64,000 nucleotides of DNA from contig WGNM01000034.1 of NCBI GenBank assembly GCA_016124575.1, positions 1 to 64,000 of the forward strand, in the 5' to 3' direction. Below the pieces are notes generated by a model that saw only the letters and a list, made by a program, of their open reading frames with translations, ran no database searches and was not told the origin of the DNA. Positions 17,863-27,528 of the stretch are shown in pieces. Position 1 is the stretch's first letter. Each line of letters begins with the position of its first letter. The translations under genes and the position numbers were made by a program. Origin of the DNA: Cryomorphaceae bacterium (lineage in GTDB: Bacteria > Bacteroidota > Bacteroidia > Flavobacteriales_D > Sanyastnellaceae).

Positions 17863-19156
17863 ATCACAGTTCTACCTGGCCATGTTTGTATTGGTGCTAG
17901 GTACCATCTACATGGGCTACCAGGTTGATCGTTCAAACAGTTGGAAGGTCATTGGTGGCTTCGCTGTGATGTTTGTGGCGATGTTTTTTGTCCTCAAGAA
18001 TGCAACAGGTATGACTTTTCGCACTTTGTTGCTACTTGGAATAGGGGTGAGGGCAGTGCTTCTTTTTTCTACTCCTCAGTTGTCTGACGATTACCATCGT
18101 TTTTTTTGGGATGGCTCCCTTACGTTGCATCAGGTAAATCCTTATCTGGTGCTGCCAGAAGGGGTAAATATGTCGGCTGATTCTACCGCTCCTGAAATGC
18201 AAGTTGCCTTGGAGCGTATGAATTCGGCAGAATACTACACGGTGTATCCTCCCATCAGTCAGGCTTATTACGCAGCAGCGGTGCTTTTCGGAAGCCACAC
18301 GATGTCGGGGTTTTTATTTTGGATGCACGTTTTTCTGCTTGTCGCAGAGTCGTTTTTGCTCCTCTTTATGGTTTTTCTCCTAGTGAAAACCGATAGAAAT
18401 CCGCAATTGATGGCGCTCTATGCCTTCAATCCGCTCGTCATCATCGAATTTTCGGGCAACCTGCATTTTGAGGGTGTCGTGCTTTTCTTTCTTGCCATCA
18501 CTGCGTGGATGTTGATGCACAGCAGGGTTTATCTGGCTGCTGTGCCTTTGGCAATGGCCATTTCAGTAAAGCTTCTTCCTTTGATTTTCCTGCCGTCAAT
18601 CTGGAATTGGCTCAAGAACAAACGTTACCTTTTTTATCTGCTGGTGTTTGCATTGTTCGCGGTTACTTTTGCTCCTTTCGTTTCTCGCGAGTTGCTGCTG
18701 CACTGGCATTCGAGTCTGAGCCTGTATTTCAAAACCTTCGAATTCAATGCCTCGCTGTACTACGCAGTGAATCGTGTGTGTGGCGCTTTTGTGGGTTTTA
18801 ATCCAATAGCGGTGGTGGGACCGTTGATGTCTGTTGTGGCTTTTGCAGGCATTCTGTTCGTCGCATTCAAAAAATCGTTTTCAATTCCTGAACGCATCTA
18901 TTGGTCTCTCTTTATTTACTTGTTGTGTGCCACTACCATTCATCCGTGGTATGTAGCTCCACTCATCGCATGGATGATCTTTACCAAACGACGTGAGGCT
19001 GTGGTGTGGACGTTCCTAGTAACCCTGAGTTACATCCATTATCACAACAATGCATTCTCAGAAAACTACGTATTCATCACGTTGGAATACATCCTTCTAT
19101 TTGCTGCCATCTTGACCCACAAGCGTTGGGCTCATCGGATGCCTTTGATGATATAA
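17849..19156 (+). CDS. GT-C type polyprenyl-phosphate mannosyltransferase-like membrane protein
   Basis: A 435-residue protein with about 11 hydrophobic helices. The first external loop has the acidic motif SDDYHRFFWDGSLTLHQVNP, and later YYTVYPPISQAYYAAA and LLPLIFLPSIWNW, which are shared by GT-C mannosyl/hexosyltransferases using lipid-linked donors. It would transfer a sugar on the periplasmic side. GTG at 17849 or 17852 is the start, overlapping the upstream gene by about 14 bases. Its 3' end overlaps the convergent DUF1704 gene by 25 bases. Donor and acceptor are unknown. Confidence 0.82.
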   Translation: MVSNKSQFYLAMFVLVLGTIYMGYQVDRSNSWKVIGGFAVMFVAMFFVLKNATGMTFRTLLLLGIGVRAVLLFSTPQLSDDYHRFFWDGSLTLHQVNPYLVLPEGVNMSADSTAPEMQVALERMNSAEYYTVYPPISQAYYAAAVLFGSHTMSGFLFWMHVFLLVAESFLLLFMVFLLVKTDRNPQLMALYAFNPLVIIEFSGNLHFEGVVLFFLAITAWMLMHSRVYLAAVPLAMAISVKLLPLIFLPSIWNWLKNKRYLFYLLVFALFAVTFAPFVSRELLLHWHSSLSLYFKTFEFNASLYYAVNRVCGAFVGFNPIAVVGPLMSVVAFAGILFVAFKKSFSIPERIYWSLFIYLLCATTIHPWYVAPLIAWMIFTKRREAVVWTFLVTLSYIHYHNNAFSENYVFITLEYILLFAAILTHKRWAHRMPLMI

Positions 19157-21135
19157 GCATAAATAGGATCATTTAAATCGGGTCGCGGATCAGCAAAGGC
19201 TTGGGTGATATACTTGGGCTGTTTCAAGATGCCTCGATCAATCAATTCTACAAGTGTGGTGTAGTATTCGATGGAGGTTTTGCCGATCAAAAGCGGACGG
19301 ATATCATTTCCAGAGCTCCAAAAATTGTAGATTTCTTTCAAGCCACGCAGGTACAAATGATCTTTGGTAAATCCACCGCCGCGGTAGATGCGCGTAACCA
19401 AATAATAGGCGTCATTAACATCCATGCGAAGCTCTTGCACCATCCTTTGATAGGTTTGCACGAAAGTCGCTCCGTTCGAAAGCATTTCGGTAGCAATTAC
19501 GCGCTGGCCGAGTTCTTTCAATCGTTTCATCATGACGTTGCCCGAAAGGTACTCACTCAAAACAGCTAAGCCTTCTTGTGTCTTGGTGTTCACGGGCATG
19601 CCTACACTAAGAATTTTTAAGGGCTGTTCGGCGCAGTTCATGGTGGTAACCATGTGGACGCCAATTTCGTGGTGCATGAGGTATTGCAGTCCTTTTTCAC
19701 TAAAAGTAGCCCCCTTTTTCAAGATCACTTTCTTCTGACTGTTCGATACCATGGCATCGGCAACAAGGTGTTTTGAAACTTCAATTTTTCCTGTAAAACC
19801 ATATTCATCAAAGCTCTTTTTGAAAAGTGCAATGGCGTCGTTTACATCGAGTTTCTTCTCCATCCGAGGCTCTTCAACTGGAGGTAGGTGCTGCAAAAAC
19901 CAAGCGTTGCGCATATCGGCTTCGTTTGGCTCTCCGAAGTAACGCAGTGAGTTGTATAAAAAACGCTCTGTGCCAAGTGAAGCGAGCATGTCGATCTTGT
20001 CGCTAAACGCATTGATCACTCCTTCATACAATCGCTGCAAGTGGATGTCTTGAATCTTCTCCAACTCCAAGCGGTGCAATTTGCGCTTTAACCCAAACGT
20101 ATCAATGTTTATTGGTCGGTATGAAAAGTCTGGATTCTCGGTACAACGGCTATCGAAGAATTTTTTCTTCTGCTTTTCAACGTTTGTGGGATTGACAAAA
20201 CTAAGCAGCTCAAAATTTTTCAACATGGCGTGCAATTCGTTGTCGATCTTCTTTAAATCTTGTCCGACATCGTGCGAAAGCAATTTCGATTTTTTGTTGT
20301 GCTTCCAGTTGGTGAAGTTGTCGGCGAACAATTGTGCATGTCCAACAATGGCCTTCTTCAACGCTTCCTTCAGTCGCTTGATGATTTCTGGATAGGGCTC
20401 GCCATTCTCCTCGTTGCAGTATATTTTGCTTACTTCGGTGGCCAGCACCAAGGTGTTTTCAAAATTCTTGGTGATGAATTCAAGGTTGTAACCACGACCA
20501 AAGAAAACGTCGTTGATGGCCGATTTGTTGACAATTCCATTTGGCAATTCAATGCCGCTCAACTCTTTTTTCCATGCCTTAACCATCTTGCCGTATTTCT
20601 TCTCATCAATGAGCTCGGCGCCAATGTTGAAGACTGGGACATCTCTTTCCCAACGTTTGTAGTTGTAAGAGTGCATGTCGTAAACAACACAGCCATCAAA
20701 CAAGCTCTCTAACTTCGAAATCAATGCATGCGTTACGCGGTAATAGTTCCTGTGCTTAGACAAACTGCGCTCTCTTTCGGCTTTGGTTAACGCTTGCTTC
20801 CAAACTTTTTTGCCCCACGCTTCTTTGTAAATACAGGTTTCTGGCTTGCGGTTCAAATCGTATTCGAAACGAGAATCTTTTCCAGCTAGCACTATCGGCA
20901 TCGATGATATAAAGTCGGCGGTGTAAGGATCTTCTTCATACCACCGTTCATAATCGGTTAGGGCTGTTTTAAGCTTTAACTCGTTCCTGAAGGCATGTCC
21001 GTCGTGAATCGCTGTGCACACATAAGGCACGTATTCTTTGATGGCTATTCTAAACCCACCGTCTTTGCTCGTGGCTTCAAATATTTCACCTTTTTCTATG
21101 CGGCGGATAATGTCGTCAATGGTTAAACTAAGCAT
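19132..21135 (-). CDS. Fusion of N-formylglutamate amidohydrolase and DUF1704 (QEGLA) metallopeptidase
   Basis: A 667-residue cytoplasmic protein with two enzyme domains. Residues about 30-260 match N-formylglutamate amidohydrolase: AIHDGH (42-47), SRFEYDLNR (88-96) and DMHSYN (153-158), which supply zinc and substrate ligands. Residues about 330-667 are DUF1704 (named after the QEGLA motif and related to the MATCAP tyrosine carboxypeptidases): HEIGVH (489-494, HExxxH) and TQEGLAVLSEYL (QEGLA 520-524). The start overlaps the upstream GshB-like gene by eight bases. Together they suggest a system that forms and removes amide-linked amino acids. The substrate is unknown. Confidence 0.85.
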   Translation of the reverse strand: MLSLTIDDIIRRIEKGEIFEATSKDGGFRIAIKEYVPYVCTAIHDGHAFRNELKLKTALTDYERWYEEDPYTADFISSMPIVLAGKDSRFEYDLNRKPETCIYKEAWGKKVWKQALTKAERERSLSKHRNYYRVTHALISKLESLFDGCVVYDMHSYNYKRWERDVPVFNIGAELIDEKKYGKMVKAWKKELSGIELPNGIVNKSAINDVFFGRGYNLEFITKNFENTLVLATEVSKIYCNEENGEPYPEIIKRLKEALKKAIVGHAQLFADNFTNWKHNKKSKLLSHDVGQDLKKIDNELHAMLKNFELLSFVNPTNVEKQKKKFFDSRCTENPDFSYRPINIDTFGLKRKLHRLELEKIQDIHLQRLYEGVINAFSDKIDMLASLGTERFLYNSLRYFGEPNEADMRNAWFLQHLPPVEEPRMEKKLDVNDAIALFKKSFDEYGFTGKIEVSKHLVADAMVSNSQKKVILKKGATFSEKGLQYLMHHEIGVHMVTTMNCAEQPLKILSVGMPVNTKTQEGLAVLSEYLSGNVMMKRLKELGQRVIATEMLSNGATFVQTYQRMVQELRMDVNDAYYLVTRIYRGGGFTKDHLYLRGLKEIYNFWSSGNDIRPLLIGKTSIEYYTTLVELIDRGILKQPKYITQAFADPRPDLNDPIYAYIIKGIR

Positions 21136-22156
21136 CCTTCACTGTTTTTCGCAATTCCCCCCGTCTTACGCTTGATGTCTCTTTCGATTTTACCGAATCA
21201 TCACAATAATCGATGACTTTCTTCTGCAAATTCGTTTTGTTTAGCTTGTTGATGTAGGTAATTCCACCCGGACTAAGCACGTTCACTTCGATGAGTTTTC
21301 CTTCGATGAGGTCCAATCCAACGAAAAACAAGCCGTCTTTCACGAGTTTTGACCCGACCACTTTACAAAGTCGTTTTTCTGCTTTGTTCAATACGTGCTT
21401 TTCATACGTTCCTCCTGCTGAAAGATTTGAACGTGCATCGCCTTCGGCAGGAACCCTGCGCATAGCTCCTATTGGTTCGCCATGCAGCATGAGCACACGT
21501 ATGTCGCCTTTTTCAGCACCTTCTACATACTCTTGAACAATCACATAACTGCTGTCGTCTTTCCCCGTGTTGATATAAAAATCAAGGAGTGAACTGATGT
21601 TTTTATCTGCTCCTTTTTCTAAGACAATTACCCCGCTGCCACCATAACCGTTAAGCGGCTTCATGATCATCTTGTCGGCGTTGCTCTCTTTGATGACGCG
21701 CTGCAAATACTCTTTGTTCTTCGAAACGTGAGTAACCGGTATAATCTCTTTCTTCGGGTCGTGAAAGGCGGCGGTGTAGAGTTTGTTGTTGGCTTCTCTC
21801 AATCCTTCTATGGAGTTGATGATGAAAACGTCGTTTTTCACTGAGTCCAAAAAGTTCAACACAATGGAATCAAGCGGTGGATTTGCTCGCATGAAAATAA
21901 CGTCGAATCCTGCCAATGGCAACATCTGTTCTTTGAATTTCGCTGCTTTGTAAAAAGCGGGTATCGACTTCGGGACTTTTCCTTTTTCGAATACTTTACA
22001 AAACGCCATCGGCGTGGAGTCGCGAATGGTGAGGTTGGCTCCAACAGTCATGGCCACAGTATATCCGCGATCAACTGTTTCGTGAATCAATCTCAATGTG
22101 GTGTCGTTTAACGGTTTCACGCGCTCCCACGGGTACATTATGAATAGGTAGTTCAT
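21128..22156 (-). CDS. ATP-grasp ligase, glutathione synthetase (GshB)-like
   Basis: A 342-residue protein with the GshB layout. The N-terminal substrate domain contains FMRANPPLDS (88-97; GshB has MRKDPPFD). The ATP-grasp core has KPLNGYGGSGVIVLEKG (166-182), IVQEYVEGAEKGDIRVLMLH and LDLIEGKLIEVNVLSPGGI with the metal-binding Glu/Asn. No GshA is nearby and many Bacteroidota lack glutathione, so the acceptor may be another peptide or amino acid. It is the first gene of a two-gene operon with the FGase-DUF1704 fusion, which argues for a joint role. Confidence 0.85.
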   Translation of the reverse strand: MNYLFIMYPWERVKPLNDTTLRLIHETVDRGYTVAMTVGANLTIRDSTPMAFCKVFEKGKVPKSIPAFYKAAKFKEQMLPLAGFDVIFMRANPPLDSIVLNFLDSVKNDVFIINSIEGLREANNKLYTAAFHDPKKEIIPVTHVSKNKEYLQRVIKESNADKMIMKPLNGYGGSGVIVLEKGADKNISSLLDFYINTGKDDSSYVIVQEYVEGAEKGDIRVLMLHGEPIGAMRRVPAEGDARSNLSAGGTYEKHVLNKAEKRLCKVVGSKLVKDGLFFVGLDLIEGKLIEVNVLSPGGITYINKLNKTNLQKKVIDYCDDSVKSKETSSVRRGELRKTVKDA

Positions 22157-22443
22157 TCTTTTCTGTCGTTTTTCTTTCGGGCTAAATGTATGCGATTTAC
22201 ATAAACCCGATGTAAATTTTGTCCCAACTTATAAGCGAATCTTAAATTATTCGCTGCTCTTCTCTGATCGCTGTCTGTGGTAGCAGTGGTACGCAGTTTT
22301 TAAGTTTTGGTTTTACCATTGAATTAATGCGGTTATTTTGTTCTTCAGACACCCAAACTGCTTGCTGATTTTTTCAGATATTGTGACTCCTTTTATACCT
22401 AATTATGAGATTTTCAATCGTTACTACTCAGCGCCTCAAAGCC

Positions 22444-25400
22444 ATGAAATACGTTTTTTCTTTTCTCTTCCTCGCAGGATGTTTAATGGGTGCTGCCAAT
22501 CCCGGTGATACTACCATTGTTCAGACATTCTCTTTTGAAGAACAAAACAACCCCAACACGGCATACGATTCACCCGGTCGTCGCTGGTTTTCTTTTCCCG
22601 ACGACAATACCTCTTACCGAAAAGTGTTAATGTACCACAAGCTGAAGTGCTTTGAAGATGGTGGAGCAGGTGGTTTGGCTTTCCCATGCGGTGAATGGGA
22701 TTATCTGACTTACAACTACCTTTTTGAACATACGGGTGAACTTGACTCTGCAGCTTTGCAACATCCGTTCTATCTGCTCGATAATCAGGATTTTGAATCG
22801 GTAGATCTAATTGAAACGCCGAGGTTCAATTTTCTGACGTTGCAATACGACGCGCTCGATATTCAGGGGGTTGCAAACATAAACGATTATCAAGTTGGCG
22901 CTGCTAATGGCGATTCACCAGATGTCTTTAAGGCCGATAATTCACAACATCGCTATCAAGCAATATATACCGCTGAAGAGCTTTTGAACGCTGGCCTAAC
23001 GGCTGGAGATATCAATCGTATCTCTTTTCCTGTTGTGTCTGGTGGGGTGATGGATTATGTTTGTATAAAATTAGGAGCGCGCTCTGGTTTCGCATTCAAT
23101 GGTTTCGATAATGGGACTTTCTCCACGGTTTTCGAAGATGATCTTACGCTGTCGGCAGGTACCCAAACAATTGCACTGACCAATGCATTTACTTGGGATG
23201 GAGTATCGGATATTCTTGTCGATATATCGTCTTTCAATAGCGATCTCGCTCAAAGCATTCTCATCGGTGCAGAATCGTCGATGAGCCAAGCCATCGCCAG
23301 CGGAGGTGCAAATGAAAGCTATATGCGCTTTAATTGGAATGATGAAATAAAGGTTCCTGCTTCTGTTTTTTCTACCATTGATGAGGCTGTTACAATTTCT
23401 TTTTGGTTGCGTGGCGATGCCGATTTCCAGCCAGAGAATGGAACTGTATTTGAAGGCGTGGATGCCGCTAACAATCGTGTTCTAAACAGCCATTTGCCTT
23501 GGAGCAACTCACGTGTTTACTGGGATGCTGGATGGGATGCTGGCTACGACCGCATCGATAAAGCTGCAACCGAAGCCGATTTTGAAGGGGAATGGAATCA
23601 CTGGGCGTTCACCAAAGACAATGGCACGGGTGATATGAGGATCTACCTGAATGGTGTCCTCTGGCACAGTGGCTCTGGTTTCGATAACCCGATGTCGGGA
23701 ATTGTGAAGTTCTCCATCGGCGCTGCCACGGGCTGGTCGAACTTCTACCACGGCGACATCGATGAATTCCGTATTTTCAATGCCGCGCTCTCTGAAGCTG
23801 AAATCGCTAGCTCACTTGCTGCAGATATCGATGTCGCTCACCCGTTATACAACCAAATGGTCTTGAACTATACGTTCGATCATCCTTTCGGAACGGAAGC
23901 TATCGACTTGAGTGCGTCGGCAACAAATGGCATTCTCGCTGGTTCGCCGCAACAAAAACTATTTATGCCGTGGGAGCTTTCTAATACGTATGCGATGCTC
24001 AATGAGCGGGCTGTGCTTTCGTTCGGACATGCTGATTATACGGTGGCGGTTGTTCCAAGTGCGATAAATATTCCTATGCTGGCAGAATATTCAATTTTAA
24101 CTGAGTGGGAAGTGGCCGACAATGATGTTCACATTGTAAGTGCTATCGCGCATTGGTTGCCGGGTGATGTGTTGTACTTCTATGAAGATGGAGAAGTGTA
24201 CGATGCCGTGCAGGATACAAATCCAACGGAGACGTTTACAAATGATGTATTGGACTATTTTGGTGCGCCGTTCGAAGTGATAAACCGCTTTGAGCTCGGT
24301 CGTTTTATTACTCCATACGGTATTCAATTGGATCTCGAGGAGGGGTGGACCTGGGTTTTTGATGTTACCGATTACGAAAAACTCCTCCACGGAGAAGTTG
24401 AACTGGAAGCCGGTAACTGGCAAGAACTGCTTGACCTGAAATTTGTATTCATTGAAGGTACCGCTCCGCGGGATGTGAAACGTATCGAAACGCTTTGGAG
24501 AGGATCTTTCGGGTTAAGCACATTCGAAGAACAAGTGGGCGTGAAATCGGTAGATGTTTTAGATGGCGAGACGATGTTTCGATTGAAAACAAGGGCGTCG
24601 GGTCATGGATTTGGAACAGGTAACAATTGCGCTGAATTTTGCTTCAATCAACACAAGGTGAAGGTAAATGGCTCTCAACAATGGGCGTGGGAAATCATGC
24701 AAGAATGTGCAGATAATCCGCTCTATCCGCAAGGTGGGACGTGGATATACGACCGAGCTGCCTGGTGTCCGGGTGCTCCTGTGGCAACACAAGACCTTGA
24801 ACTAACGCCTTTTGTTTCGGGTGATCAGTTTGAGGTGGACTATGATATTACGTATGATCCGTATGGGAATTATGTCTTTGAAGGACAAATCGTTGCATAC
24901 GGCGATATGAACCATCAAAACGATGTTGAACTCGATTGGATCATTTCTCCAAGTGATTGGAAAATCAATAGCCGCGTAAACCCTATCTGCGATGAGCCTG
25001 TGGTGCGCATCGAAAACGCTGGCGCGCAAACGTTGACTTCGTGTGTTATTACTTACAATGCGGGTGGTAGCAATGAATCGATGACATGGACTGGCTCGCT
25101 GGAACCTTTCCAAACTGAAGATGTGACCCTCGAAATTAGCGATCCTGCTTTCTGGTCCGGTAGCCCCGATGAGGTGCAGTTGTTTACGGTAAATGTGAGC
25201 TCGCCAAATGGTGTGGCTGATGAATACGAGGCGAATAATACGGGGACAAGCACCTTCAATCGTCCTCCTGTTTATACCTACGGCACGGGTGCCGACGATG
25301 ATAACCGTCTAATCATTTGGACCAAAACGAACAATGCTCCTTGGGAAACAGAAGTACGCATCGAAACGCTTGATGGTGAGGTGGTGTTCTTTCGCGACGA

Positions 25401-25896
25401 TTACAGCACGGCAAACACGAACTACCGCGATACCATTCAGTTGAATGCGGGCTGCTATAAAGCAATTCTCAGCGATTCAGATGAAGATGGCTTGAGCTTT
25501 TTTGCCAACAATGATGGCAGTGGTTTCTGTCGTTTTAAGAAGGTTGCAGGAGCGAATTTTATCGCTTTCGAACCTGATTTCGGTAAAGAAATCATCCACT
25601 ATTTCCAGTTTGAAACGGGGCTCACCACGGTTGAAGAATGGGTTGCTGATAAGCCGTTTTTAACGGTATACCCAAACCCAGGTAACAATGAAATGATGGT
25701 GAAAACTGGTCGGTGGAAGAATGATTTGGTGTGGACGCTTTTTGATGTCAATGGTCAAGCTGTAAAGGCCGGTAGCCACCGGTTAAATAGTGGTGATTTT
25801 TTCAGTGTGAACACACGCGAAATAGCTGCTGGATTGTATTTCTTGGTGGTTGACGATGGTAAAACACGTGTCAGCTCTCGCTGGATGAAAGAGTAG
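22444..25896 (+). CDS. Secreted PNGase F-like deglycosylase with inserted LamG region and T9SS type A signal
   Basis: About 1150 residues from ATG 22444 (signal peptide ending MGAA). Residues about 20-100 match the start of the PNGase F N-domain with CGEWDY (Asp86, aligned to catalytic Asp60). After a roughly 500-residue insertion containing a LamG/concanavalin-like domain (about 300-460), PNGase F homology resumes at GRFITPYG (619) and FIEGTAP (Glu671, like Glu118). It continues through NCAEFCFNQH (Glu731, like Glu206) and YDRAAWCPGAPV. The last 75 residues are a T9SS type A domain (VYPNPGNN, AAGLYFLVV). It probably releases N-glycans from proteins outside the cell. Alignment is by eye. Confidence 0.85.
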   Translation: MKYVFSFLFLAGCLMGAANPGDTTIVQTFSFEEQNNPNTAYDSPGRRWFSFPDDNTSYRKVLMYHKLKCFEDGGAGGLAFPCGEWDYLTYNYLFEHTGELDSAALQHPFYLLDNQDFESVDLIETPRFNFLTLQYDALDIQGVANINDYQVGAANGDSPDVFKADNSQHRYQAIYTAEELLNAGLTAGDINRISFPVVSGGVMDYVCIKLGARSGFAFNGFDNGTFSTVFEDDLTLSAGTQTIALTNAFTWDGVSDILVDISSFNSDLAQSILIGAESSMSQAIASGGANESYMRFNWNDEIKVPASVFSTIDEAVTISFWLRGDADFQPENGTVFEGVDAANNRVLNSHLPWSNSRVYWDAGWDAGYDRIDKAATEADFEGEWNHWAFTKDNGTGDMRIYLNGVLWHSGSGFDNPMSGIVKFSIGAATGWSNFYHGDIDEFRIFNAALSEAEIASSLAADIDVAHPLYNQMVLNYTFDHPFGTEAIDLSASATNGILAGSPQQKLFMPWELSNTYAMLNERAVLSFGHADYTVAVVPSAINIPMLAEYSILTEWEVADNDVHIVSAIAHWLPGDVLYFYEDGEVYDAVQDTNPTETFTNDVLDYFGAPFEVINRFELGRFITPYGIQLDLEEGWTWVFDVTDYEKLLHGEVELEAGNWQELLDLKFVFIEGTAPRDVKRIETLWRGSFGLSTFEEQVGVKSVDVLDGETMFRLKTRASGHGFGTGNNCAEFCFNQHKVKVNGSQQWAWEIMQECADNPLYPQGGTWIYDRAAWCPGAPVATQDLELTPFVSGDQFEVDYDITYDPYGNYVFEGQIVAYGDMNHQNDVELDWIISPSDWKINSRVNPICDEPVVRIENAGAQTLTSCVITYNAGGSNESMTWTGSLEPFQTEDVTLEISDPAFWSGSPDEVQLFTVNVSSPNGVADEYEANNTGTSTFNRPPVYTYGTGADDDNRLIIWTKTNNAPWETEVRIETLDGEVVFFRDDYSTANTNYRDTIQLNAGCYKAILSDSDEDGLSFFANNDGSGFCRFKKVAGANFIAFEPDFGKEIIHYFQFETGLTTVEEWVADKPFLTVYPNPGNNEMMVKTGRWKNDLVWTLFDVNGQAVKAGSHRLNSGDFFSVNTREIAAGLYFLVVDDGKTRVSSRWMKE

Positions 25897-25902
25897 GTCT
25901 TT

Positions 25903-27528
25903 CTATTCGAGTATCGCACGCACGGTGCGGATGCGGTGGTCCTGCTCAAATTGTAAGTAGTACACGCCGGCTGATAGTCCGAGTGAACGTAAATCAAGGG
26001 TCCCAATTCCACGAGACGAGTCAATGTATACGCAGGGAAGGTCCGCTAGGATTCTTCCCTGTGTCTCATATATGCGCACGTTCTCGCTTGTGATGCCCGA
26101 TACTTCAAAGCGTATCAATCCATCCGATGGATTGGGGTAAATGAGTATCCCGTTTGCTTGCGCTGAAAATTTGTTCAACAAGTACTGGTGTGCTTTGCCG
26201 AAATCTGGAATGCCATAGCCAAGAGAATCATTGGGATTCGCATATAGGTGTGCACTGCGCTCTATCGCTTCGATGATTTCCATATTTGTAGCTTGTGGAT
26301 GTGCTTGCCACAAGCAGGCTGCCGCGCCACACAGTATAGGTGATGAAAAACTGGTCCCGTTTCCCTGTCGAATGGTGCTGTCGTTGGCAGCATACGAGGC
26401 GGCTTGACCCATAGCAACAACGTTGGGTTTTACCCTGCCATCTGCCGAAGGCCCGAATGAACTGAAAGGGGCGTGCTCACCTAAATTATTGATGGCCCCA
26501 ACGGTAAGTATGCTGTCGGCATCTCCAGGGGTTGAGATGTAATGCCAATCACTACTCCCAAGGTTTCCAGCACTGGTAACTACCAACATGCCCCTGCGGG
26601 CTGCCATGGTTGCGGCAATGGCAATGTGTGTGGTTCTTCCGTCCATGTCGAAATAGCTGTGGTCTTGCAGTGAATCGTCAAAGGTGCTATACCCCAATGA
26701 TGAATTTACGATGTCGATGCCGATGCTGTCAGCTTCTTCAATGGCTGCTACCCAGTTGTCTTCTTCTATGATGTACTCTGTTGCCCCATCTTCTGTGCGG
26801 AAAAGAAAATAATGGGCGTCGGGTGCCGTGCCCACAAGGCTGTCTTGCAAATATCCACCCATGGTGCTTAACACGTAAGTGCCATGGTAATGGTGATCGG
26901 TAACGATATTGTCCCAGTCTACAAAGTCATGGACTTCGGTTATTGTCTCTCTTTCATACAGTCGTTCAAAAACTGGGAGGATAGGCACTCGCCTAAATCC
27001 TGCATCTAAAACGCCTATCCACATGCCTTCTCCACGGTATCCGAGCGCATGAAGATAATCACCATTTATCTGTTTCAATTGATCCAGGCCTTCTCCGTAT
27101 ATGCTGCTTTCAAATTCTGTTGCTGTGCTTCTGATTATCGCTTGGGGTGCAATAGGTGAGTGGAAGGTGCGCACTTGCCGAACCTGAGAAACGAATGGCA
27201 AGGCTGCTATGTCTGCTAGCAAGGTCGAATCTGTGGTTTTTATGGAAATGGCGTTAAACCACTTCGAGCTGTGCAGGTGCTCGATGTTGCCGATGGATAA
27301 AACGGCTTGAATGTAATTCGAATTTACAGGAAGATCTTCTAAAGTAATGGACTGAGCGCTTTTTGCTCTTCGTGCTAAAGCACGCTCTGAAAGGAATTCT
27401 GAGGGATTATTGGTGCTGAATGATGAGTTGTCTTTGTCTGAAAAGCGAATCCAATATTTGTTCGGGGCGGTTTGACTGAAGCTGCAAACAACCTGCAAGA
27501 AGAAGCTTATAAATAGCAATAACCTCAT
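25903..27528 (-). CDS. Secreted subtilisin-like S8 protease with T9SS type A signal
   Basis: A 541-residue protein. It has a signal peptide (ending CSFSQ), a propeptide-like region to about 140, and a subtilisin domain with Asp in IGVLDAGFRR, His in HHYHGTYVLSTMGG, Asn in TSAGNLG and Ser in GNGTSFSSPILCGAAA. A T9SS type A domain closes the protein (IYPNPSDGL, GLSAGVYYLQF). It is exported across the outer membrane and either anchored or released. It is last in an overlapping three-gene operon behind a lipoprotein and a MORN-repeat protein, and ends six bases from the convergent PNGase F-like gene. Confidence 0.92.
   Translation of the reverse strand: MRLLLFISFFLQVVCSFSQTAPNKYWIRFSDKDNSSFSTNNPSEFLSERALARRAKSAQSITLEDLPVNSNYIQAVLSIGNIEHLHSSKWFNAISIKTTDSTLLADIAALPFVSQVRQVRTFHSPIAPQAIIRSTATEFESSIYGEGLDQLKQINGDYLHALGYRGEGMWIGVLDAGFRRVPILPVFERLYERETITEVHDFVDWDNIVTDHHYHGTYVLSTMGGYLQDSLVGTAPDAHYFLFRTEDGATEYIIEEDNWVAAIEEADSIGIDIVNSSLGYSTFDDSLQDHSYFDMDGRTTHIAIAATMAARRGMLVVTSAGNLGSSDWHYISTPGDADSILTVGAINNLGEHAPFSSFGPSADGRVKPNVVAMGQAASYAANDSTIRQGNGTSFSSPILCGAAACLWQAHPQATNMEIIEAIERSAHLYANPNDSLGYGIPDFGKAHQYLLNKFSAQANGILIYPNPSDGLIRFEVSGITSENVRIYETQGRILADLPCVYIDSSRGIGTLDLRSLGLSAGVYYLQFEQDHRIRTVRAILE

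Follow-up and report, generated by a model that had tools for sequence, protein, structure and literature searches.

The window analysed here, the whole 64,000-nucleotide stretch at positions 1 to 64,000 of contig WGNM01000034.1 (assembly GCA_016124575.1) from a Cryomorphaceae bacterium, carries a gene for a long protein of the PNGase F superfamily. Its catalytic core is split in two by an insertion containing a LamG domain, and it ends in a sorting tail of the type IX secretion system (T9SS). The gene, the two pieces of the core, and the parts of the insertion lie as follows, with residues numbered from the ATG at 22444 such that residue n begins at 22444+3(n-1).

22444..25896, + strand: complete gene, encoding 1,150 residues when started at the ATG at 22444; an in-frame ATG also occurs at 22405
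22501..22704, + strand: N-terminal part of the interrupted PNGase core, residues 20-87 (profile and structure alignment)
22705..22830, + strand: first arm of a loop extension, residues 88-129, common to insert-less relatives (profile alignment)
22831..24057, + strand: nested block, residues 130-538, without counterpart in insert-less relatives (profile alignment)
22822..23310, + strand: all-beta region ahead of LamG, approximately residues 127-289 (model; no Pfam match)
23314..23982, + strand: LamG (concanavalin A-like) sandwich, residues 291-513, with the Pfam match at 299-455 (structure alignment and Pfam)
24058..24297, + strand: second arm of this extension, residues 539-618 (profile alignment)
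24298..24912, + strand: C-terminal part of the interrupted PNGase core, residues 619-823 (profile and structure alignment)

The coding region is a single uninterrupted frame, running from 22405 or 22444 to 25896. This stop-free frame, together with an identical layout in 56 distinct genes, rules out a chimera or a frame artefact.

A preliminary description, made by eye from the sequence, had proposed a PNGase F core split around a LamG domain, and the comparisons bear this out. PNGase F was matched at E 5e-14 in a sequence search of solved structures, and a 16-member profile matched PNGase F at E 1e-22 and zebrafish Ngly2 at E 1e-12. The motif CGEWDY (residues 82-87) is separated from GRFITPY (619-625) by more than 500 residues (~530 between matching motifs), whereas in PNGase F, by its chain numbers, Asp60 lies about 15 residues ahead of YEIGRFITPY. 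These two motifs, as well as E731 in NCAEFCF and DRAAWCPG at 770-777, were found where they had been placed. Among Pfam families, N-glycanase_C (PF09113) matched residues 712-800 (E 3e-11, 43.8 bits against a curated cut-off of 25), and N-glycanase_N (PF09112), whose region is interrupted by the insert, left a sub-threshold fragment (E 0.02, 15.1 bits against 22.4); the latter family also falls just under its cut-off in the insert-less relatives L098 (20.8 bits) and L099 (21.9 bits).

Structure prediction joined the two halves. The first AlphaFold2 model, of the full-length protein, had a predicted local distance difference test score (pLDDT) of 66.6 and a predicted template modelling score (pTM) of 0.40. 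PNGase F ranked 29th in its Foldseek search, and no PNGase appeared among its best 50 VIA-align rows, a list filled by LamG matches. A second AlphaFold2 model, covering residues 18-835 and built with 18 sequences, was of moderate confidence (pLDDT 70.0, pTM 0.50), and its top Foldseek match was PNGase F itself (1png, E 5e-10). VIA-align superposed this model on 1pgs with Z 20.1 and a root-mean-square deviation of 3.6 over 260 of 311 residues, from model residue 4 to 806 and chain residue 4 to 306; Ngly2 (9lwg; Z 18.9, 259 aligned) and PNGF-II (4r4x; Z 17.1) followed. Since the post-insert piece holds ~210 residues in the aligned range, at least 50 aligned residues precede the insert, some of which could fall within the insert, since the alignment is known by its two ends only. 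Thus, with the 1pgs alignment starting at the N-terminus and reaching the opposite end, the two separated pieces are predicted to make one PNGase F fold of two side-by-side jelly rolls, and the refuting case named in the preliminary description, halves that fail to build a single jelly roll, did not arise in the model.

The insertion was found to be nested. The stated length of ~500 residues holds relative to PNGase F; relative to insert-less kin, the extra part is a block of ~409 residues, comprising the all-beta region and LamG, set within a loop extension of ~125 residues that these relatives already possess. In a profile alignment against the ~125-residue loops, residues 82-129 matched columns 1-48 (E 2.6e-11) and residues 539-628 matched columns 55-143 (E 8e-13), scores that are raised by the conserved end motifs and that come from seven of eight chosen loops (that of L133 was not captured). 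The spacing between the Asp motif and FITPY is 20-59 or 122-131 residues in relatives without LamG and 519-553 in 56 insert-bearing rows (54 distinct, window excluded), and it was unreadable by pattern for 33 LamG-less rows and for L097 and L113. This natural series of loop lengths (~20-60, 122-131, and 519-553 residues) allows a direct test of what the insert does. L143 (G283) was rejected as an inserted form: its LamG-like stretch precedes the Asp motif, CDPWDQ, and the contig ends within its frame.

The presence of LamG within the core was confirmed by an above-cut-off Laminin_G_3 match (E 3e-19, residues 299-455) and by the fold, the modelled LamG (PF13385) matching PAPP-A and pentraxin domains with Z 20-22 by VIA-align in both models. 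Nine residues (R345, N348, H350, P352, W353, W360, D361, D369, and R370) form a motif present in 37/37 loci (L032-L068, duplicates included). The motif was not found in the diverged LamG of L097/L105, L112, L113, L119, and L120, where the motif region was unaligned; the strong divergence in L105, L112, L113, L119, and L120 hints that the insert may present a different ligand surface in different lineages. Proteins on viral contigs (L101, L102, and L104, and L103 in part) were observed to carry a LamG with the same RxxNxHxPW...YWDxG motif at 33-38% identity, and these contigs yielded LamG relatives only; the viral and inserted LamG may possibly be shared adhesion domains. An adaptation of the motif to PNGase was rejected on the grounds of the viral copies. 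The motif rather marks a LamG subfamily, being on viral contigs yet missed in some diverged insert LamG domains.

With respect to distribution, PF09113 was detected in 105/114 genomes of the host's family (48 of the 50 near-complete ones), and a frame of at least 1,000 residues was present in 92/114 by our own count. The other genome of the host's genus (G045, 85% complete) gave no PF09113 match. The domain occurs in 192/245 genomes of the order and in 66/392 of an even draw from the phylum, the latter counting all forms, and among the relatives that carry a name are Flavobacteriales, Crocinitomicaceae, and Saprospiraceae. A quick tree was built from 81 of the 111 distinct cores, own-family and short rows having been thinned; with support given by the Shimodaira-Hasegawa-like approximate likelihood ratio test (SH-aLRT) without bootstrap, 36 insert-bearing genes formed one clade (SH-aLRT 99), and the insert-bearing L097 clustered with three insert-less genes (SH-aLRT 97); the 38 rows labelled LamG in this tree include L143, with LamG ahead of its Asp motif. 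This topology would be accounted for by a single gain plus a single loss, or by two gains. The split architecture is the usual long form of the lineage, old and inherited. In L002-L015 and others of the host's own family, a second, short PNGase F-type protein (~390-470 residues) with the Asp motif GDPWDK was also seen, and the genome of the window contains the long form only.

The residues expected around the active site were located as follows, with conservation counted in the 56 distinct insert-bearing genes, window included.

22699..22701, + strand: D86 in CGEWDY (82-87), equivalent of PNGase F Asp60 (sequence and profile alignment)
24412..24414, + strand: G657 at the Glu118 slot (profile alignment; Gly in 55/56)
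24421..24426, + strand: Q660-E661 (56/56)
24454..24456, + strand: E671 in FIEGT, not conserved (column E31 K19 H4 V2)
24604..24606, + strand: H721 in GHG (56/56)
24634..24636, + strand: E731 in NCAEFCF, equivalent of PNGase F Glu206 (profile alignment and conservation)
24751..24774, + strand: DRAAWCPG, residues 770-777 (conservation)

Excluded from this count were three duplicates (L059, L052, and L105), L143, and a fragment, L001; L105 is represented by its copy L097, which is truncated ahead of the Asp motif. CGEWDY, an instance of the C-x-E-W-D motif that holds Asp60 in the superfamily, was found in all 55 genes that hold that part, the 56th copy being cut ahead of it. R771, W774, and C775 are each present in 56/56 and E731 in 55/56; the remaining gene reads GHGAHGEF owing to an alignment slip. 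In 21 longer insert-less relatives, examined in a comparison in which L143 counts among 60 rows, the His and the E731 equivalent are kept in 21/21, and the Glu118 slot is variable, with Gly in 10.

Of the three catalytic acids that the preliminary description took to be retained, D86 and E731 stand and E671 does not. E671 was rejected as the third acid, being opposite the Tyr of PNGase F VYGTP and in a variable column, and the true Glu118 slot is G657. The protein thus has no acid at the position that is acidic in type I PNGases and resembles type II in having Gly there. In a type II enzyme, Gly at this place (G380) was described as forming a pocket for core alpha-1,3-fucose, with another Glu, given as E418 in the text and E419 in a legend, taking over (PMC9522356). 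In the PNGF-II chain, the Glu of NVMEMA follows the FIGNY Gly by 39 residues, in agreement with the published offset, and FIGNY corresponds to AGNW here, the two slots being likened by motif and residue counting. Since type II enzymes carry Gly instead of Glu118 (PMC9522356), the variation at E671 does not argue against catalysis. From its conservation, E661 is a speculative candidate substitute for Glu118.

Putative export signals flank these modules, and a further weak match lies between the core and the tail.

22444..22500, + strand: leader peptide, residues 1-19 (read by eye)
25003..25245, + strand: weak CARDB-like match, residues 854-934 (below the family cut-off)
25666..25890, + strand: T9SS type A sorting tail, residues 1075-1149 (Pfam and TIGR04183 matches)

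The tail, which agrees with the T9SS export named in the preliminary description, scored 41.2 bits against a cut-off of 23 for TIGR04183 at the C-terminus, and Por_Secre_tail matched residues 1075-1144 above its cut-off (E 2e-9). A T9SS tail was likewise found in 11/16 members of the alignment, whose rows are trimmed to match ranges. The secretion system itself is present in the host genome (G000; SprA_N, E 3e-160), and SprA was detected in 109/114 genomes of the family and in 50/50 near-complete ones. The leader contains LAGC (22471-22482), which resembles a lipobox; judging from the sequences, this is probably due to chance, because most of the leaders compared show no such motif by eye.

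Comparison with characterized enzymes places the protein within a known family. Type I PNGase F (1pgs, 1pnf, and 3pms) shares with it the fold, Asp60, Glu206, GRFITPY, and DRAxWCPG, but has Glu118 where Gly occurs here and no LamG; PNGase F also has Trp191 where most PNGases have His (PMC12381499). Type II enzymes, namely PNGF-II (4r4x and 4r4z) and the B. massiliensis PNGase (7zgn), share the fold, the Gly at the Glu118 slot, and the GHG and EF motifs; unlike the present protein, they have an N-terminal bowl domain, the Asp motif GDAYDR, and no LamG, and the loop from Asp to FTPF is ~56 residues in relatives. The bowl domain is found in most group 2 sequences and is absent here, where fewer than 30 residues lie between leader and core. 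Zebrafish Ngly2, a lysosomal animal enzyme, shares the fold seen in the superposition above and conserves the active-site Asp and Glu, but differs in having PA and Tx-like domains, with no LamG described in the available text of PMC12753239. PNGaseL and PNGaseDo, T9SS-tailed PNGases from Bacteroidota that resemble the window protein, were among six PNGases expressed and assayed; their accessory modules, compared here by published description only, lie N- or C-terminal to the catalytic module and not inside it, and in PNGaseDo a beta module was modelled over the active site (PMC12381499). The insert-less relatives L098, L099, L126, L130, L131, and L132 have CGEWDY, both loop arms, and the C-terminal region in common with the window protein (L098 and L099 also, weakly, the T9SS tail), but span 122-131 rather than 519-553 residues from the Asp motif to FITPY and lack the LamG block. 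A literature search with subscription journals mostly outside its coverage showed no paper on a PNGase with LamG among the entries listed. The available text of PMC12381499 describes no LamG within a catalytic domain, though its 1,897-sequence tree may include PNGases with LamG. The conserved architecture is real, and it belongs to a known enzyme family for which no description of a LamG-in-core layout was found in these searches.

Sequence comparisons and models together show a PNGase fold, kept W-D-aromatic, His, and Glu206-type residues, the anatomy of the insertion, and the sorting tail. The reading favoured here, with a probability of about 0.55, is that the protein is an active, T9SS-exported enzyme of the PNGase F superfamily that scavenges N-glycans, with LamG docking beside the cleft. 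The chain is predicted to exit the core just past the catalytic-Asp motif, cross the ~125-residue extension with its ~409-residue block, and re-enter to complete the fold. After export by the T9SS, D86 and E731 would hydrolyse the GlcNAc-Asn bond of external N-glycoproteins, the Gly at the Glu118 slot would leave space for core alpha-1,3-fucose, and, more speculatively, E661 would assume the role of Glu118. From its tether next to the catalytic Asp, the LamG block would dock on glycan or protein near the cleft, an arrangement for which modules modelled over PNGase active sites offer a precedent (PMC12381499). The freed glycan could then be trimmed by enzymes such as the mannosidases of glycoside hydrolase family 92 (GH92). 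The host genome encodes one GH92 protein, and the family was found in 101/114 genomes of the host's family (49/50 near-complete). Across the order, PNGase and GH92 occur together in 170 of 245 genomes, PNGase without GH92 in 22, GH92 without PNGase in 32, and neither in 21, giving, with all PNGase forms counted and kinship ignored, an odds ratio of 5.1 (Fisher 1e-5).

Several observations weigh against this reading. The cleft loops have pLDDT below 50 in both models, Trp at the Trp120 slot (W659) is present in just 34/56 genes, and no invariant counterpart was found for the compensating Glu that lies 38-39 residues downstream in type II, E682 being variable and the loop lengths differing. The LamG motif is not special to these PNGases and was not found in the LamG of some members. 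The co-occurrence of PNGase and GH92 takes no account of kinship, and in genus g26 PNGase was found in 8/10 genomes and GH92 in 0/10.

The enzyme might instead be active with the LamG block as a spacer or exposure module only, making no substrate contact and having no effect on specificity. This explanation, possible though unlikely, draws on a type II enzyme that kept its activity and specificity without the N-terminal bowl domain (PMC9522356), on the existence of insert-less relatives with the same loop arms and catalytic residues, and on the sharing of the LamG motif with viral-contig proteins, but it sits uneasily with the invariance of the nine motif residues in L032-L068 and with the attachment of the block to the catalytic-Asp loop. 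The Gly at the Glu118 slot, for which no sure substitute acid was found, would, along with the LamG fold, also suit a catalytically dead PNGase-like protein serving as a surface binder of glycan or protein. Against this, hardly any of the 56 distinct genes departs from the Asp60 and Glu206 equivalents, the His, or WCPG, and type II enzymes are reported to be active with Gly in this position (PMC9522356); a dead binder is considered improbable. A PNGase acting on the bacterium's own glycoproteins, not food, would fit a gene that is near-universal in the family, with its long form mostly in single copy as for a housekeeping function, and that is an orphan, the flanking genes examined including no N-glycan cluster; GH92 is, however, equally widespread in the family, and such a role is considered very improbable.

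On native glycoproteins that have had no prior treatment, most of the activity of PNGase F is lost (PMC12381499). If the favoured reading of an exported, LamG-assisted enzyme is correct, a lectin-fold block in the catalytic-Asp loop, inherited across much of the phylum, would show one way in which PNGases are aimed, and the protein could become a tool for plant- and invertebrate-type N-glycans; such an enzyme also suggests that breaking down N-glycoproteins is a core trait of a single bacterial family. A more far-reaching version, regarded as doubtful, would see here a third PNGase architecture, in which the catalytic-Asp loop has been turned into a docking arm, LamG at the cleft mouth enables action on native core alpha-1,3-fucosylated glycoproteins (for example, algal ones), Q660-E661 replaces Glu118, and the whole constitutes a core trait of the family.

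As for the surroundings, a convergent gene for a subtilase-family protease (25903-27528, - strand) adjoins the PNGase gene and has a weak, below-cut-off T9SS tail; it was not seen next to PNGase in any of the 37 loci compared, several of which have short flanks and some of which are duplicates. On the other side, at 19132-22156 (- strand), a gene resembling N-formylglutamate amidohydrolase and MATCAP (tyrosine carboxypeptidase-like) overlaps a glutathione-synthetase-like ATP-grasp gene. This pair is divergent from the PNGase gene and is retained beside PNGase in 5/37 loci.

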